Origin: Candidatus Nanoarchaeia archaeon
GTDB lineage: Archaea; Nanobdellota; Nanobdellia; Woesearchaeales; WJIZ01
Direction of reading: 5' to 3'
Length of the DNA: 64,000 nucleotides
Assembly: GCA_028279765.1 (NCBI GenBank)
Contig: JANQND010000002.1
Coordinates: forward strand, 1 to 64,000
Made by a program: the position numbers and the translations under genes. The notes under the pieces were generated by a model, which saw only the letters and a list, made by a program, of their open reading frames with translations, ran no database searches and was not told where the DNA came from. Shown here piece by piece: positions 623-32,955 of the stretch (its first letter is position 1; every line of letters begins with the position of its first letter).

Positions 623-1371
623 TAAGCCATAGGGGGATCGGCTTTGGGCATGCGGAAAATAGCATTCCTGCATTAACGCAGGCACTGGATTTGGGTTTCT
701 CTATTGAAATTGACATCAGGATGAGCAAAGACGGAGTGCCTTTTGTAGTGCATGATGCAAATCTTGATCGATTATTTTCAAAAGGAGGTAAGGTTAGAGA
801 CTATCCTGCAAAGGACTTAGCATCAGTCCACTATAAAGAGAACTCATCATTTTCGATAGTGCAGTTTGAGGAAATAGTACAATACTTCAAAAAGATAAAA
901 AACAGAGATCCTCATAACAGCAGTAAGATTTTCGTGCATGTTCAGGATATAAACGAAGAGAATGTTCTTGAGAGTATCGCACAGATTATTTCTGATTTAG
1001 AAAAAGAAGATTTCTTTAGGATATTTGCAGTCGATGAAATGAGTATTCCAAGTATCAGGATGATACGGAAAATAGACCCTCAATTAAAAGTAGGGCTTTA
1101 TCTCCCGCAGAGTTCAGAGCGTTTCTCAGAAGAATTCTTCAAAGAAAACGATTTTGATTTTGTTTGGGCAGATGAGCAAAGGGGCTGGTTTTCAAAAGAG
1201 ATGGTGCAGCTGGCACACACATCCAGCAAAGAAATTTACGCAATATCTCCTGAAATCTTAAATGAAAAAGATGAGCAAAGATGGAAAGAATTGATTGAGT
1301 TCGGGTTTGATGGAATTTGCACAGACCTTCCAAAAGAGTTAAAAAGTATCATAGAGAACATGCATTCATAA
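613..1371 (+). CDS. Glycerophosphodiester phosphodiesterase (GDPD) family protein
   Basis: N-terminal ISHRGIGFGHAENSIPALTQALDLGFSIEIDIRMSKDGVPFVVHDANLDR is the GDPD signature; start overlaps the preceding stop. Confidence 0.88.
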   Translation: MEIISHRGIGFGHAENSIPALTQALDLGFSIEIDIRMSKDGVPFVVHDANLDRLFSKGGKVRDYPAKDLASVHYKENSSFSIVQFEEIVQYFKKIKNRDPHNSSKIFVHVQDINEENVLESIAQIISDLEKEDFFRIFAVDEMSIPSIRMIRKIDPQLKVGLYLPQSSERFSEEFFKENDFDFVWADEQRGWFSKEMVQLAHTSSKEIYAISPEILNEKDEQRWKELIEFGFDGICTDLPKELKSIIENMHS

Positions 1372-1398
1372 ATTAAGGGAAAAACTGGAGAATTATCA

Positions 1399-1923
1399 AT
1401 GAAACTTAATCTGGGGTGTGGGTTTGCTATCAAAAAAGGATATACTAATGTAGATTACATCAAGAATAAAGGGGTTGATATAGTACACGATCTCAATTCT
1501 TTTCCTTATCCGTTCAAAGACAATAGTGCTGATGAGATCTATATGTCGGATGTTTTGGAGCACCTAGAGGATCACCTCGCTGTCTTAAAAGAGTGCAGGA
1601 GAATAATAAAACCTTCAGGGGTTATTCGATTGCAGCTGCCGCACTTCTCTTACTATCGCGCATTCCAGCCGCTGCACAAGACCTTTTGGCATTTGGGTTA
1701 TTTTGATCGCTTTGTTCATGCTACAAAGCAGGGGAGTGCAGAGCAGTTCAATTGGTTTAGCATAAAAAGAAGAAAAATTCATTTCCTTAAAGGGTTGCTA
1801 TTCTGGAACTACCTCATAGACTTTCTTGTCAACATAAGCTCCAAAACCCAGGAAATATACGAGGCAAGCTTTGCCTTTATCTTTCCGGCGGAAAATTTTG
1901 AAATTGAATTAAAGAAGAAGTAA
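1399..1923 (+). CDS. Class I SAM-dependent methyltransferase
   Basis: MKLNLGCGFAIKKGYTNVD motif I, then EIYMSDVLEHL and LKECRRIIKPSGVIRLQLPHF. Confidence 0.85.
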   Translation: MKLNLGCGFAIKKGYTNVDYIKNKGVDIVHDLNSFPYPFKDNSADEIYMSDVLEHLEDHLAVLKECRRIIKPSGVIRLQLPHFSYYRAFQPLHKTFWHLGYFDRFVHATKQGSAEQFNWFSIKRRKIHFLKGLLFWNYLIDFLVNISSKTQEIYEASFAFIFPAENFEIELKKK

Positions 1924-1952
1924 GAGCAGTAGAAGCAAGCATTTCTAGCCGA

Positions 1953-2687
1953 TTAGTTCAGTGAAGGAAGCTTATCTTTATTTTCTTCAAATTCCTCAGG
2001 AGTTCCCAAAGACCACATCTCAGCTACGGGGTAGTTAAGGATCTTTTTTCTGTTCTCTATAAATTCATTATAGACAGGACAAACATAGAACTCATTATTC
2101 GTTCTGATATTCTTTCGGATCATCTCATCGGCATGCTTGATTAGTTCTTTTCCGGATTTAAAGTAATAAATACCTACAGCACCGTGGTTGCTGATGACCT
2201 GTTTTTCAGCAGTTTGGATGATAACTTTATCCTTAACCTTGGCATAGCTAAAGCCGGCATTATCCGTATCTATAGTAACGATTCCTCCGTCTGCATCGTG
2301 CCTTCTCACATAATCAAGGAAATGCTGAGGGATCCAGTCTATTACCTGATCGCAGTCTTTGATTATCATTTCATCATCGCTGTCAAAATATCCTTTTGCC
2401 TCAAGAACAGTACAGATAGCACCCTGTGTTATAGCATCAAGCACAAAGATTTGAGCATCGGGGATGATTTTTTTCAGAACTTTGTCAAGGTTGTGTTCCT
2501 CGACATGATCTTTTCGTACAATAAAGATAAAATTAGCCTCGGGAAATTTCATGCAATCAAGAACATATTCAATAATATATTTATCCCCTATCTTGATAAG
2601 CGGTTTAGGTTCAGTATACCCTTCATTAATAAAGCGCTGTCCTCTTCCTGCCATAGGCATTACAAGGTTGACCTTCTTAGCGCTCAT
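1953..2687 (-). CDS. Sugar nucleotidyltransferase (NTP_transferase family)
   Basis: VNLVMPMAGRGQRFINEGYTEPKPLIKIGDKYIIEYVLD signature; start at MSAKK overlaps the upstream stop as ATGA (2684-2687). Confidence 0.85.
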   Translation of the reverse strand: MSAKKVNLVMPMAGRGQRFINEGYTEPKPLIKIGDKYIIEYVLDCMKFPEANFIFIVRKDHVEEHNLDKVLKKIIPDAQIFVLDAITQGAICTVLEAKGYFDSDDEMIIKDCDQVIDWIPQHFLDYVRRHDADGGIVTIDTDNAGFSYAKVKDKVIIQTAEKQVISNHGAVGIYYFKSGKELIKHADEMIRKNIRTNNEFYVCPVYNEFIENRKKILNYPVAEMWSLGTPEEFEENKDKLPSLN

Positions 2688-26706: not shown

Positions 26707-27625
26707 ATATCTTTCTCCCTCTAAATAATTTCTTCATAGAGACTGGTCCTAAGATAAGCAAGTAAATCATTTCGATGGCTCTATCGACAACAGAGACCAG
26801 CAATCCTGATGAAAAGCTGTTTTTTAGTAAAGTAGAGAAATATGCAACGCTTGCTTCTTTAATGCCAAGTGAAGCTGGGGTGATCGTAATTAGCGAAGAG
26901 AGTGCAGATATCAATGCCAGAAGCAAGGCAACTGCAAACGAAGGTGCAATTCCAAAGATCAGGAGGATGAAATAGAAACGAAGGCCGATGGCTAAACACA
27001 ATAGGACATCCAGTAAAAGCAATAAAACAAGTATCAGTTTATGGCGACGGATTTCATCCCAGCCTGTAAGCATTTTATTAAGTGATTTCATGAGCCAATG
27101 GGATCGTGAAGATTTTGGCGCACGGATAATGATGCATGCTGAAGTTCCGAGTAAAATAGAAATAAAAAAAGTTAGCAGTACTATTGAAGCTGTCTGCTGT
27201 GTTAAATAGAGAAAGAGGAGCAAACCTAACCCTATGAGAGAAGTAGCAAGGAACAAGACAATATAGAGCGCGCTTAATGTTGACAAAAAAAGAGAATAGG
27301 AAAAAGTGTAGTGCTTTTTGAGATAATATGCCCTCAGGGCTGCTCCTCCTCTAAAAGGAGTAAGGTAGTTGCCAAAGGTAGTGAGATTTGCAAGCGTAAA
27401 ACTTTCGCCAAAGGGGAGTCGTATGTTAAATGGCACAAGGAGAAGTTTTATCTTCAGGGCATTAATCATGCTCGTTAAAAAAACAAAGAGGAATACTGCT
27501 GCAAGTAAAAATGGATGATGAAAAATCTTCTGGAATTCAACAAGGTCATTTTTTACTGTAATGGTAAGTAAGAATAGGAAAAGAAGAATTGAAATAGAAA
27601 TCCAGGTCTTTTTTGATTTCATCAT
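26699..27625 (-). CDS. Lysylphosphatidylglycerol synthase TM-region/UPF0104 family membrane protein
   Basis: TNLTTFGNYLTPFRGGAALRAYYLKKHY and LITITPASLGIKEASVAYFS motifs, multi-TM. Confidence 0.83.
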   Translation of the reverse strand: MMKSKKTWISISILLFLFLLTITVKNDLVEFQKIFHHPFLLAAVFLFVFLTSMINALKIKLLLVPFNIRLPFGESFTLANLTTFGNYLTPFRGGAALRAYYLKKHYTFSYSLFLSTLSALYIVLFLATSLIGLGLLLFLYLTQQTASIVLLTFFISILLGTSACIIIRAPKSSRSHWLMKSLNKMLTGWDEIRRHKLILVLLLLLDVLLCLAIGLRFYFILLIFGIAPSFAVALLLALISALSSLITITPASLGIKEASVAYFSTLLKNSFSSGLLVSVVDRAIEMIYLLILGPVSMKKLFRGRKIFT

Positions 27626-28830
27626 GTGGCGTTTTGGTACTCTCTACAATACTGGGCAGCAATATGGTCCCAGACAAAGTGTTTTTTTGCATGAGCATAC
27701 GCATTCCTGGCAAGGTTCTCTCTTTTCTTTCTGTCTGTTAATAGAGCCAGCATATGCTCTGCAAGGCCCTTAGCATCTTTTTCTCTTGAAAGCAAACCCA
27801 CTTGAGGGGAAGAAATAACATCGGGGATTCCACCTGAACGTGTTCCGATTACAGGTGTTTTCGATGCCATTGCCTCCACAAAAACAACACCCTGGGTCTC
27901 GCGATCGCCGCTGCTATCAATAATGCTAGGCAGGACAAAAAGATCAGCTGCATCATAATACGCAGGGAGCTGGGAGTGGTCTATTTCCTCTGCGAAAACA
28001 ACTCGGTCAGTGATCTGAAGGCTGATTGCCTGCTTCTTAAGATCTTCAAGGAGAGGTCCTCCTCCTACGATAACGAGCCTTGATTTGGTAAAAGAGTGAA
28101 GAGTTCTCGCGTAAGCATCGAGAAGGTAGCGATGCCCTTTCTTCTCTACGAGGCGGCCTACACTTAGTATCAGAAGCTCACCATTGGGGCAAAGCTTCTT
28201 CTTAATTTTTTTCGAGCCTGTAATGGTTGGATGGAACACACTCATATCTACGCCAAGAGGCATGGTTTTGATCTTTTGAGAAAAGCCATATCCTCTGGCA
28301 ATGTTACGAAGGCCGTTCGTAAGAGCAAAGTTCCCCTTGCTTTTCTTCATGATGATATTAAGCAGGGGAACCAGGTGATATTTTCTTGAAAGAAACACTT
28401 CTCCTCCATAAATCGTTATCAGATAGGGCCTGGGCAAAAGGTACGCGGTAAAGCCCTGAGGAAAGGCCCAATGCGCATGAACAACGTCTGGCTTGAATTT
28501 TTTTATAGCCTTCCTGGCAGCTAAGTATTGAGAAAGCATGAAGGGAACGATTTGAAGTTTTGCAAGAAAGCTGTGTTTAAGGTTTGCAGGTATTCCCGGA
28601 CCGTACGCAAGTCTCTGCCATGCTGGCGGTATAAAGTATTGGAAACGGGTGACCTTGATTTCTTCAAACAGCTCACTTTTTTTTACACCTTGGTCATGTG
28701 GTGCAATAACCATAACCTCGCAGTTATGCTTTAGGAGGCTTTTTGCCAGGCTATAAGTAAACGGAGGCTGCGCATCTCCTTTGAACCGGGGAAACTTAGA
28801 GGTGAGAATTAAAACCTTCAGTTTTTTCAT
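27622..28830 (-). CDS. Family 4 glycosyltransferase
   Basis: VLILTSKFPRFKGDAQPPFTYSLAKSL, LSVGRLVEKKGHRYLLDAY, FVEAMASKTPVIGTRSGGIPDVI. Confidence 0.93.
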   Translation of the reverse strand: MKKLKVLILTSKFPRFKGDAQPPFTYSLAKSLLKHNCEVMVIAPHDQGVKKSELFEEIKVTRFQYFIPPAWQRLAYGPGIPANLKHSFLAKLQIVPFMLSQYLAARKAIKKFKPDVVHAHWAFPQGFTAYLLPRPYLITIYGGEVFLSRKYHLVPLLNIIMKKSKGNFALTNGLRNIARGYGFSQKIKTMPLGVDMSVFHPTITGSKKIKKKLCPNGELLILSVGRLVEKKGHRYLLDAYARTLHSFTKSRLVIVGGGPLLEDLKKQAISLQITDRVVFAEEIDHSQLPAYYDAADLFVLPSIIDSSGDRETQGVVFVEAMASKTPVIGTRSGGIPDVISSPQVGLLSREKDAKGLAEHMLALLTDRKKRENLARNAYAHAKKHFVWDHIAAQYCREYQNAT

Positions 28831-28853: not shown

Positions 28854-29789
28854 TTATAAAACTTCTTTAAAATAGTCGATGGTGTCTTTCAGTCCCTGTT
28901 CAAGCTCAATGTTAGGCCGCCAGTTAAGCTTTTCATTTGCCAAACGAATATCAGGCTTCCGCATGATAGGATCATCCTTAGGCAGTTCTCTAAATCCAAT
29001 CTTTATTGAAGATCCAGTAAGTTCAATAACTTTCTCTGCAAGTTCAAGAACAGTAAATTCATGCGGGTTTCCCAAATTGATAGGTCCGGTAATTCCCTCC
29101 TTGTTCATCATGGAAACTATGCCTTCAACAAGGTCAGAAACATAACAGAAGCTTCGCGTTTGCCTCCCATCTCCATATGCTGTAATATCTTCACCCTTGA
29201 GTGCCTGGACAATAAAATTAGAAACCACGCGTCCGTCATTCGATGCCATCCGTGGCCCATAAGTGTTAAAAATTCGTATGACACGAATATCAACATCATG
29301 CTGCCGGTGATAGTCAAACATCAGTGTCTCTGCACATCGCTTTCCCTCATCGTAACATGCACGAATGCCAATAGGGTTTACGTTTCCCCGATATGATTCT
29401 GTCTGCGGGTGCTCCAGTGGATCACCATATACTTCGGAAGTGGATGCCTGAAGAATTCGTGCGTTATGCTTGAGGGCCATGCCAAGCATATTCGTTGTCC
29501 CCAAAACATTTGCCTTAATGGTTCGAATAGCATTATATTGATAGTGGACCGGAGATGCCGGGCAGGCAAGATTATAGATCTGGTCGATCTTTTCATTGTC
29601 AATAAAGAGCGGATTGATAATGTCATGCTCGATTAATCTGAAATTCGGGTTCTTCATCAGGTGTTCAATATTCTTTTTTGTTCCCGTAAAGAAATTATCA
29701 ACACAAATTACTCTGTTTTTCTCAATTAATGCATCACAAAGATGGCTTCCTAGAAAGCCTGCTCCTCCTGTTACAACGATGGTTTTCAT
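28854..29789 (-). CDS. UDP-glucuronate decarboxylase-like SDR
   Basis: [74 protein letters not shown]. Confidence 0.92.
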
Positions 29790-30526
29790 GGGGTAAATTC
29801 TTTTCTTGCCTTTTCTAATTGCTCAAGTGATCCGATATCAAACCAGTTTTTATCGCTGACATAACAATACACCTCTTCCTTATTGTAGAGCCATTCCAGG
29901 AAATTTCCGGCTTTATCAGCATCATGGTTTTTGGTAAATACAATCAGTTCCTGGATTGTTTTTTGAGGATACACATAGATCCCCGTTGAAGAGAGAGTAG
30001 ATCTCGGCTGGTCTGGTTTTTCCTCAAAGTCGCTAATCTTGCTCTCCTCATCAATCGAAACAATGCCATATAACTTTGCAAGCTCAATATCCTTGACATC
30101 ATAGAGCGCAACCACTGACCTTCCTTTTTGCCTGAACAAATCAACCATGGGTTCAAGAGAAAATTCAAACAGGTTATCCCCTGCAATAACCATGACATCA
30201 TCCTCTATCTGCATATTCTCAACGACGAATCGAATGTCACCAAGAGACCCCAATCGATCGTCATTAGACATGGTTTTATCATTAACAATGGTTACTGGTT
30301 TACTGCACTCAAACCCCGCGTTCCAGTCCAGGAAATGGGTAAAGAATTTATTATTGGTCACCACGTAAATAGTGTCAACCTCATCAGCAGCCTCAATTTT
30401 CTTTATAATGTGCTCAATGATGGGCTTGTCCTTCACGTCCAGCAATGGCTTAGGTTTATCCTTTGTAAGGGGATAGAGTCGGGTTGCATAGCCTGCGGCT
30501 AGGATTATTGCTTTAATGGTACTCAC
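29786..30526 (-). CDS. Sugar-1-phosphate nucleotidyltransferase
   Basis: [51 protein letters not shown]. Confidence 0.9.
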
Positions 30527-30607: not shown

Positions 30608-31912
30608 TTATACTCCTCTTCCTACTCCCTTGTATGCAAAGCCTGCTTGCTTCATTTCTTCAGGATCGTAAACATTTCTCCCATCCATGATGTTGGGGTG
30701 TGCCATCAACGATTTCATCTTTTCCTTATCGAGGTTTCTGAATTCGTTCCACTCCGTTACAATAACCAAAAGATCAGCATCTGCAAGGGCATCATAGGGA
30801 GTTTTTGCAAAGGAAACATCATTTATTATTCGCTTAGCTGTCTCTTCTGCTTCCGGGTCAAAAGCGACAATGTGAGCTCCTTCTTTTTGTAGCTGATCAA
30901 TCACCACCAGGGAAGGCGCCTCGCGCATATCATCGGTTTTGGGCTTAAAGGATAGTCCCCAGACAGCAACTTTTTTGTCCTTGAGATCCGGCACTAATTC
31001 TTTAATTTTGGGAAGCAGTGATCGTTTCTGGTCGTGGTTGACCGTCTCCACAGCCTCCAGGATCAATCCGTTTACCCCGTTTGCTTTCATAGTTTCGCGA
31101 AAAGCATTTACATCTTTAGGAAAGCAGCTTCCGCCATATCCGGCGCCTGCCTGAAGGAATCGGGGGCCAATGCGATTGTCAAGGCCCATTCCCTTTGCAA
31201 CCATTTTCACGTCAGCACCCACCTTTTCACAGAGCTGGGCTACCTCATTCATAAAGGAAATTCTGGTTGCAAGCATAGCATTGCTTGCATACTTGATCAT
31301 TTCTGCGCTTTTCACATCAGTAAACAGGATAGGTTTGTCAACGCGTGCTATTCCTTTGTAGATCTCTTCAAGCACTTTTTTTGCTTTTTCAGAGGCTGTT
31401 CCTACGACAATGCGGTCAGGGTTGGTGAAGTCACCGATAGCCTCTCCCTCTCTCAGGAACTCAGGGTTAGATACCACATCAAAATCAATCTCTTCTTTCT
31501 GATTTTCTTTAATGACCTGTGCAACCATATCCGCTGTTCCGACAGGGACAGTACTCTTATCAATAATGACCTTATAATCGTTCATATGCTCTCCAATGGA
31601 TTTTGCAACTGCCCTCACAAAAGAGAGGTCTGCTTCATGATTTTTGCCGGGAGGGGTGCCAACCGCAATGAAGATCGCCTTAGATTTCTGGATCGCATCC
31701 TTGATATCGGTAGTAAATACTATTCTTCCCTCTGCACGGTTCCGTTTAAGCATATCTTCAAGCCCGGGCTCATAAATAGGGACTCCTCCAGAATTGAGAA
31801 GGCTGATCTTTTTCTCGTCTACATCAACGCAAATAACTTCGTTTCCTAGGTCTGAAAGGCATGTTCCGGCAACAAGGCCAACATATCCTGATCCAATAAC
31901 TGCAATGTTCAT
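30608..31912 (-). CDS. UDP-glucose 6-dehydrogenase
   Basis: MNIAVIGSGYVGLVAGTCLSDLGNEVICVDVDE, SNPEFLREGEAIGDF, FLQAGAGYGGSCFPKDVNAF. Confidence 0.94.
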   Translation of the reverse strand: MNIAVIGSGYVGLVAGTCLSDLGNEVICVDVDEKKISLLNSGGVPIYEPGLEDMLKRNRAEGRIVFTTDIKDAIQKSKAIFIAVGTPPGKNHEADLSFVRAVAKSIGEHMNDYKVIIDKSTVPVGTADMVAQVIKENQKEEIDFDVVSNPEFLREGEAIGDFTNPDRIVVGTASEKAKKVLEEIYKGIARVDKPILFTDVKSAEMIKYASNAMLATRISFMNEVAQLCEKVGADVKMVAKGMGLDNRIGPRFLQAGAGYGGSCFPKDVNAFRETMKANGVNGLILEAVETVNHDQKRSLLPKIKELVPDLKDKKVAVWGLSFKPKTDDMREAPSLVVIDQLQKEGAHIVAFDPEAEETAKRIINDVSFAKTPYDALADADLLVIVTEWNEFRNLDKEKMKSLMAHPNIMDGRNVYDPEEMKQAGFAYKGVGRGV

Positions 31913-31953
31913 TCATAAAACCTCCATCATTGTTTTTGGAGCACTGCTTTAAA

Positions 31954-31978
31954 TATCTTACCCTTATCCTACTTTATC
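31954..31978. promoter_or_regulatory. Three TATC direct repeats phased at 10-11 bp between divergent genes (candidate operator)
   Basis: TATC at 31954-31957, 31965-31968, 31975-31978 in aaatatcttacccttatcctactttatccgata. Confidence 0.4.
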
Positions 31979-31980
31979 CG

Positions 31981-31993
31981 ATATATTTAAATA
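31981..31993 (+). promoter_or_regulatory. TATA box (BRE/TATA) for the RHH-nucleotidyltransferase gene
   Basis: atatatttaaata ~25-30 nt upstream of GTG 32016. Confidence 0.6.
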
Positions 31994-32015: not shown

Positions 32016-32813
32016 GTGAAGAAGAAAATATCCATCACTGTTGAGAATTCTCTCATAAAAGAAATTGATACTATCATTGACCATATCTATATCCGAAACA
32101 GATCGCAGGCAATAGAGCACCTCATCAGTACAGCGCTCGGAGAAAACCGTACCGCTGTAATCATGGCAGGAGGAGATGAGGAAAAAATCAGGATCGGAAA
32201 AGAATTCCGTCCCACTATTCTGATTAAGAAGAAAAGCGTGATTGAGCGCGCAGTGGAAAAATTGCGCGGGTCCGGTTTTAAAAATATCTATATTATTGCG
32301 CGCCAGGCTGTGCTCACAAAAATATTTGACATCCTTAGGGACGGGACAATCTATAGCGTAAAGATCAACTATATCGAGGAAAAAAAATCCAATGGGTCAG
32401 CAGACTCCCTGCGGCTCCTCAAGGGGAAGATTGACTCGGATTTTTTGGTCGTCTATGGAGATATTCTGTTCAGCAAAATCAATCTTGACGAGTTATGGAA
32501 CGACCATCTCAGGCATAATGCAGCAGCAACCATCATGATGACGACCTCTCCTCGGCCGTCCGAGAAAGGGACCTTAAAAGTCGAGGGAAATAAAGTGCTC
32601 ACCTTTACCCAAAAGCCAAAAGAGTCAGATATTTATCTGGTGTTTTCGCCTATTTTTGTGGCCAGCAAAGAAATACTGGAATATAGCGGGTCAAGCTTTG
32701 AAAAAGATGTGTTTCCTCAAATGGCATCAAGGAGCCTGCTCAATGGCCATTTTAGCTCGGAAAAAGAGACTCATATACACACACTCAATGATGCAAAAAA
32801 GATGGAGAAGTGA
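32016..32813 (+). CDS. Ribbon-helix-helix DNA-binding domain fused to nucleotidyltransferase-like domain
   Basis: N-term KKKISITVENSLIKEIDTIIDHIYIRNRSQAIEHLISTAL is RHH-like; AVIMAGGDEEKIRIGKEFRPTILI...VVYGDILFSKINLDEL...FTQKPKESD...FEKDVFPQMA follows the NTP_transferase layout; GTG start. Confidence 0.85.
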   Translation: MKKKISITVENSLIKEIDTIIDHIYIRNRSQAIEHLISTALGENRTAVIMAGGDEEKIRIGKEFRPTILIKKKSVIERAVEKLRGSGFKNIYIIARQAVLTKIFDILRDGTIYSVKINYIEEKKSNGSADSLRLLKGKIDSDFLVVYGDILFSKINLDELWNDHLRHNAAATIMMTTSPRPSEKGTLKVEGNKVLTFTQKPKESDIYLVFSPIFVASKEILEYSGSSFEKDVFPQMASRSLLNGHFSSEKETHIHTLNDAKKMEK

Positions 32814-32819: not shown

Positions 32820-32934
32820 GGTGGACAGCTTTCTTGGTTTCCCGTACGGAAATACAGTACTGCCAAAAACGGAGACGTTCTTAACTTCCGTGTTCGAAAT
32901 GAGAACGGGTGAGCCACGTCCCTATGGCCGTCCA
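32820..32934 (-). rRNA. rrf: 5S ribosomal RNA
   Basis: Minus strand TGGACGGCCATAGGGACGTGGCTCACCCGTTCTCATTTCGAACACGGAAGTTAAGAACGTC...GCTGTCCACC: conserved GAACACGGAAGTTAAG and CCATAG, helix I TGGACGGC/GCTGTCCA closes. Confidence 0.93.
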
Positions 32935-32955
32935 GAAGAAAGGAATAAAAAATCA

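Follow-up and report, generated by a model that had tools for sequence, protein, structure and literature searches.

The window (the whole stretch of DNA analyzed, 64,000 nucleotides in length) comes from a 1.5-Mb MAG, whose relatives belong to the Woesearchaeota/Woesearchaeales. An open reading frame on the plus strand, at 32016-32813, runs for 265 codons from a GTG start, intact and without a frameshift, and encodes a protein in which a ribbon-helix-helix (RHH) segment is followed by a degenerate sugar nucleotidyltransferase (NTase) fold. This gene is divergent from that of a UDP-glucose 6-dehydrogenase (UGD), and the features of the locus are as follows:

27622-28830, minus strand: GT4-type glycosyltransferase, the probable distal gene of the operon
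28854-29789, minus strand: NAD-dependent NDP-sugar epimerase/dehydratase of the UGD operon, UDP-xylose-synthase-like (putative activity)
29786-30526, minus strand: sugar-1-phosphate nucleotidyltransferase of the UGD operon, with an intact catalytic signature
30608-31912, minus strand: UGD, proposed to head the target operon (TIGR03026, 482 bits, above the cut-off)
31948-31983, plus strand: conserved 36-base intergenic element TTTAAATATCTTACCCTTATCCTACTTTATCCGATA (candidate operator and the flanking UGD TATA)
31948-31955, minus strand: TATA-box-like sequence of the putative UGD promoter, TATTTAAA on the minus strand
31954-31964, plus strand: candidate operator repeat 1, TATCTTACCCT, which begins the 21-base match at 31954-31974
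31965-31975, plus strand: candidate operator repeat 2, TATCCTACTTT, with the remainder of that 21-base match
31976-31983, plus strand: partial third repeat ATCCGATA, found by sequence comparison to be ATCCTACC-like in several relatives
31986-31993, plus strand: TATA-box-like TTTAAATA of the RHH-NTase gene, some 23-30 bases ahead of its GTG
32016-32150, plus strand: RHH domain, residues 1-45, predicted to bind DNA (profile and Pfam matches, AF2 helices at residues 11-22 and 29-40, invariant K4-S6-T8)
32151-32810, plus strand: degenerate sugar-NTase-fold domain, residues 46-265, the proposed nucleotide-sugar sensor (PF00483, fold match, catalytic residues lost clade-wide)

The transcript of the RHH-NTase gene would presumably be leaderless. 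A 5S rRNA gene (32820-32935, minus strand; Rfam RF00001, 64.9 bits) is convergent with it, and lies 6 bases past its stop codon.

The larger part of the fusion protein is readily recognized, with a match to PF00483 (NTP_transferase) at residues 47-231 (E 3.5e-19), which scores 69.8 bits against a cut-off of 21.2. The AF2 model, which was built from 29 relatives, has a mean pLDDT of 86, high in the NTase part and low in residues 1-40, as expected of an RHH strand that needs its dimer. This model matches the sugar-1-phosphate nucleotidylyltransferases, including GMPP beta and RmlA, over about 220 residues, and the GMPPA/GMPPB complex 7d72 is also among the matches of the profile and fold searches, so that both the family profile and the fold (Z 24-27) place the protein in PF00483.

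The RHH segment is matched more weakly. Its N-terminal ribbon reads KKKISIT, and an extended segment followed by helices at residues 11-22 and 29-42 is predicted when the N-terminus is folded alone by AF2. As a single sequence, it matches NikR models weakly (E 0.002, residues 4-45), and the protein of the window alone falls below the Pfam cut-off for RHH. An alignment profile of the family matches NikR 2bj1 at 5e-4 (residues 4-41), and the profile search also recovers the solved antitoxin Rv0298 at 0.037, at the N-terminus. Pfam RHH_1 is matched by nine of 29 members, at best with 2.2e-5, and its gathering score is passed in two paralogues, while K4, S6 and T8 of the ribbon are invariant in all 44 sequences of the fusion protein and its orthologues (group A) that have residues there. 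A fold search with a model of the 45-residue segment returned no significant match, only one insignificant antitoxin chain, for a monomer whose ribbon needs a dimer. Taken over the family as a whole, the sequences assign the N-terminus to the RHH superfamily (MetJ/Arc/CopG). The earlier note on this DNA had described the fusion of an RHH segment with an NTP_transferase-like domain, and the HMM searches of both halves bear this out, that of the RHH by way of the family profile. The note had also allowed that the fusion might be a frameshift or an assembly artefact, which is excluded by the full-length orthologues, present in 26 of 99 related Woesearchaeales genomes of many genera (48-77% identity), as well as in named public MAGs. 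In one further genome (G061), one contig bears a UGD-like gene with the operator site and, at one end, a 49-codon piece of a group-A gene (C19:21828-21971, 69% identity).

All of the orthologues from the related genomes carry a degraded catalytic signature, and the pattern of the losses is consistent over the 45 group-A sequences in which conservation was counted. Random residues occupy position 57 (the Arg of GGxGTR), and most sequences have Arg for the Lys of KP at position 65. At position 253, His takes the place of the second metal Asp in 40 of the 45, and the Asn-Gly of the sugar loop is replaced by Phe-Ser-Pro or Phe-Ser-Ser in nearly all of them. Other parts of the active site are retained, including D149, the first metal Asp of the GD motif (43 of 45), K200 of EKP (all 44 sequences that have a residue at this position), and the GTADSL-loop glycine (45 of 45), and the pocket-lining G127, D149, K200, P201, and F210 rank among the most conserved positions of the group. 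The earlier note had reported the loss of the usual Arg and Lys from the signature; both are indeed gone, throughout the clade, but it is mainly Arg that stands in for the Lys, and the losses extend to one more catalytic residue, an Asp. As the same residues are lost clade-wide and others are near-invariant, a sporadic pseudogene is ruled out. The combination of the catalytic GGxGTRLxPxT..KP loop and two metal Asp is thus absent from group A, and the sequence places the fusion protein in the NTase fold family, but apparently not among the active NTases. Based on RmlA, the retained residues are presumably those of the sugar-phosphate side, and the lost ones those which handle the leaving pyrophosphate, which makes the binding of a product without catalysis plausible by analogy, although the retention of D149 and K200 may leave room for residual catalysis.

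The neighborhood of the gene is also conserved. Among the 38 loci with enough flanking sequence, UGD is directly divergent from the fusion gene in 29, and is followed by an intact NTase and an SDR in about 20. With its full catalytic signature, the operon NTase in the window (29786-30526) makes the fusion protein unnecessary for that activity. At four loci (L058, L059, L084, and L094), the directly divergent gene is not UGD, but encodes a protein of 302-363 aa, some of which appear Nudix-like by eye; the 36-base site lies between this gene and that of the regulator in L058, L059, and L094, with a weaker variant in L084. At 16 of 39 loci, a conserved gene on the opposite strand (cluster 4), RqcH/NFACT-like by eye, is found near or downstream of the group-A regulator, as in L076, where it spans +982..2094 relative to the regulator start.

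The intergenic region shared by UGD and the fusion gene contains a near-invariant site, TATCTTACCNTTATCCTACTTTAT, which consists of tandem copies one helical turn apart, placed between back-to-back TATA boxes. Its core is the direct repeat TATCTTACCYT-TATCCTACTTT, with a partial third copy, and an inverted TATA-like pair (31948-31956 and 31983-31991) flanks the repeats, which means that the site abuts both of the BRE positions. The dimers of RHH proteins often occupy sites one helical turn apart. The 36-base element TTTAAATATCTTACCNTTATCCTACTTTATSCGATA is matched at no fewer than 24 of its 36 positions in 38 of the 45 group-A upstream regions, many of them at 30-36, while the DNA that flanks it looks unalignable by eye. 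The other seven regions score 19 of 36 or less, two of which were mis-scored, given that their site runs up to the start codon. De novo motif discovery in the group-A upstream regions gave an LLR of 538, against 79-99 in first-order shuffles, a difference which overstates the independence of the sequences, as the genomes share ancestry. Per sequence, the LLR was 12, versus 2.6 for a control set of regions upstream of unrelated genes from these loci; the regions upstream of the operon NTase and SDR are conserved coding sequence, and therefore unusable as controls.

The site appears to be dedicated to this locus. The 21-base pattern has a single zero-mismatch occurrence in the 1.5-Mb genome, at 31954-31974, and with up to three mismatches allowed, the looser matches stay at the level that the reversed pattern gives as a control, with no second close site above it. 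On this count, the genome is judged to have no broad regulon. Across the related genomes, a site with at most one mismatch is found in 22 of the 26 that have the gene and in three of the 73 that lack it (Fisher p 5e-15, a value inflated, like that of the shuffles, by shared ancestry). One of these three genomes has a truncated gene, and the sites of the other two lie no more than 150 bases from the end of a contig. In two genomes (G023 and G060; loci L134 and L135), the regulator and UGD are on separate contigs, and a zero-mismatch site directly precedes UGD, which is hard to explain by synteny. Elsewhere, a one-mismatch operator-like site in G068 (C11:52561-52581) lies away from both UGD and the regulator gene, and no target gene was identified for it. 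The locus thus combines a conserved divergent target gene with a site in the shared promoter, as in a local one-component regulator. That the RHH protein controls the adjacent UDP-sugar operon had been proposed in the earlier note, and the proposal gains from the UGD pairing, from the near-invariant site with its single close genomic match, and from the occurrence of this site at unlinked UGD genes, so that, as judged from comparative sequence data, the regulatory link between the fusion gene and the UGD operon is well supported.

Group A is one of several related groups. A sample of 279 genomes from across the phylum has homologues with E of 1e-20 or better, nearly all of which cover the RHH end, in 109, other orders of the class among them. 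Trees group A and one long-branch paralogue together in a supported clade, adjacent to group D, and groups C and D each form a single clade. Group B combines the RHH with a fully intact NTase signature (GGKGTRLRPIT..IPKAL), and mostly precedes a phosphohexomutase gene; its motif is a tandem ATCATAC (LLR 149 versus 61-67), and examples such as L034, L037, and L028 are candidate active enzyme-regulators. Group C, which is also present in the genome of the window, is divergent from a heptose operon in which gmhA, heptose-7-phosphate kinase, and ADP-heptose 6-epimerase all pass the NCBIfam cut-offs, and its motif is a palindromic AGTATGA-N5-TMATACT (LLR 222 versus 63-69), with a single zero-mismatch site in the genome, at C28:61387-61405. 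The second RHH-NTase of this genome (G000:C28:60567-61298; L031:5568-6299, minus strand) is divergent from the heptose operon. Group D is divergent from dTDP-sugar isomerase genes (dTDP-rhamnose-like), at one locus with an RmlB that passes the cut-off. The ribbon residues vary by group in step with the motifs, being K-S-T in A, R-T-T in B, K-A-S in C, and R-S-S in D. These patterns tip the balance, by a small degree, toward a family of RHH-NTase regulators in the Nanobdellota/DPANN, one per nucleotide-sugar pathway (UDP-glucuronate/xylose, heptose, dTDP-rhamnose-like, and hexose-1-phosphate) and each with its own operators, in which group B would be an active enzyme-regulator, and groups A, C, and D pseudo-enzyme sensors, leaving the path from enzyme to sensor readable.

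For the protein of the window, it is likely that the fusion acts as a one-component regulator dedicated to the UGD operon and to its own gene, with the pseudo-enzyme domain as the sensor of a nucleotide sugar. The targets would be the divergent UGD-NTase-SDR operon, of the UDP-glucuronate/UDP-xylose type, and the fusion gene itself. The RHH dimer would recognize ATCYTAC half-sites, which recur every 10-11 bp across 31954-31983, with two or three dimers side by side between the back-to-back TATA boxes, covering the positions at which TFB would recognize both BREs. The NTase fold, lacking the Arg/Lys loop and the second metal Asp, and retaining D149, K200, and the GTADSL loop, would bind one of the nucleotide sugars or sugar phosphates of the pathway and thereby alter the binding of the DNA, as a feedback or feed-forward sensor. 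The DNA binding, the oligomer, the sign of the regulation, and the ligand are all predictions of this scheme, and the role of ligand sensor is proposed as one that fits the active-site residues kept and lost, and the adjacent pathway.

As the BRE would be covered at both promoters, repression of both genes is the likelier sign, and the fusion probably acts as a repressor. The same regulator may instead activate UGD, a sub-case compatible with the other parts of the scheme, given that the site is upstream of both TATA boxes, and that archaeal activators also bind upstream of TATA boxes. This option is possible, but rather doubtful, as the repeats reach up to or into both BRE positions and one TATA box, an arrangement which would fit occlusion better.

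The NTase domain of such a regulator might also be simply a scaffold for dimerization or tetramerization, with no ligand, since RHH arrays need multimers, and NTase folds oligomerize, as established for RmlA and GMPP. A scaffold would not require the strong conservation seen in the residues that line the pocket, however, and this reading is unlikely. It is quite unlikely that the protein is a trigger enzyme, that is, that its NTase domain still makes a nucleotide sugar, with the RHH coupling the state of the enzyme to transcription, as in PutA. The active-site elements retained in group A would suit such an enzyme, and group B, with its intact signature, implies that this state exists in the family, but nearly every group-A member has other residues in place of the catalytic Arg and Lys and the second metal Asp, and an intact NTase is already encoded in the operon, adjoining UGD. 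That the intergenic element serves the core promoter or a general factor, with the fusion acting elsewhere or not on DNA, is very improbable. Its TATA boxes and its location at the BRE positions would suit such a role, but a site of this kind should recur at many promoters, yet this one occurs once in the genome, tracks the presence of the fusion gene, and is replaced by different motifs, at positions of their own, in the paralogue groups.

Sensing by a pseudo-enzyme thus remains the preferred reading, and its interest lies partly in the biology of the host lineage. These archaea are tiny and for the most part dependent on hosts, which they meet by way of surface glycans supplied by sugar nucleotides, and, to our knowledge, very little is established of gene regulation in the DPANN, with few regulators described in the lineage. 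If correct, this reading would provide a regulator, a candidate operator, a target operon, and a short list of ligands for the lineage. The NTase fold would then also join those enzyme folds that have been recruited for transcriptional sensing, and an intact enzyme version is available in related genomes for comparison.

No description of an RHH-nucleotidyltransferase fusion was found in the open-access literature; the closest known systems share some of its parts. NikR, the closest match to the RHH sequence, is similarly composed of an N-terminal RHH and a C-terminal ligand-sensing domain, although the latter is ACT-like and binds nickel, in contrast with the NTase fold of the fusion. In the ROK-family repressors (NagC, Mlc, and XylR), an enzyme fold of sugar metabolism has become the sensor of a one-component regulator, but a sugar-kinase fold is combined with a winged HTH, rather than an NTase fold with an RHH. 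GMPPA is reported to be a non-catalytic paralogue of GDP-mannose pyrophosphorylase, which binds the nucleotide sugar GDP-mannose and regulates the pathway (PMC11228364); it shares with the fusion a catalytically dead NTase fold of the same fold family, but is an allosteric subunit of a eukaryotic enzyme, without a DNA-binding domain. PutA, the trifunctional proline utilization A protein, likewise joins an N-terminal RHH to a metabolic enzyme, and is reported to be the autogenous repressor of its own regulon (PMC5293562). Its enzyme is an unrelated bacterial flavoenzyme which is still catalytic, whereas the fusion lacks the catalytic residues, and, as the C-terminus of the fusion is an NTase fold, and not the proline dehydrogenase-homologous domain of the PutA-type class, the likeness is one of working only. 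Enzyme-derived one-component regulators are already known, and what appears to be new here is the sensor fold, the combination of domains, and a family of multiple paralogues with candidate operators.
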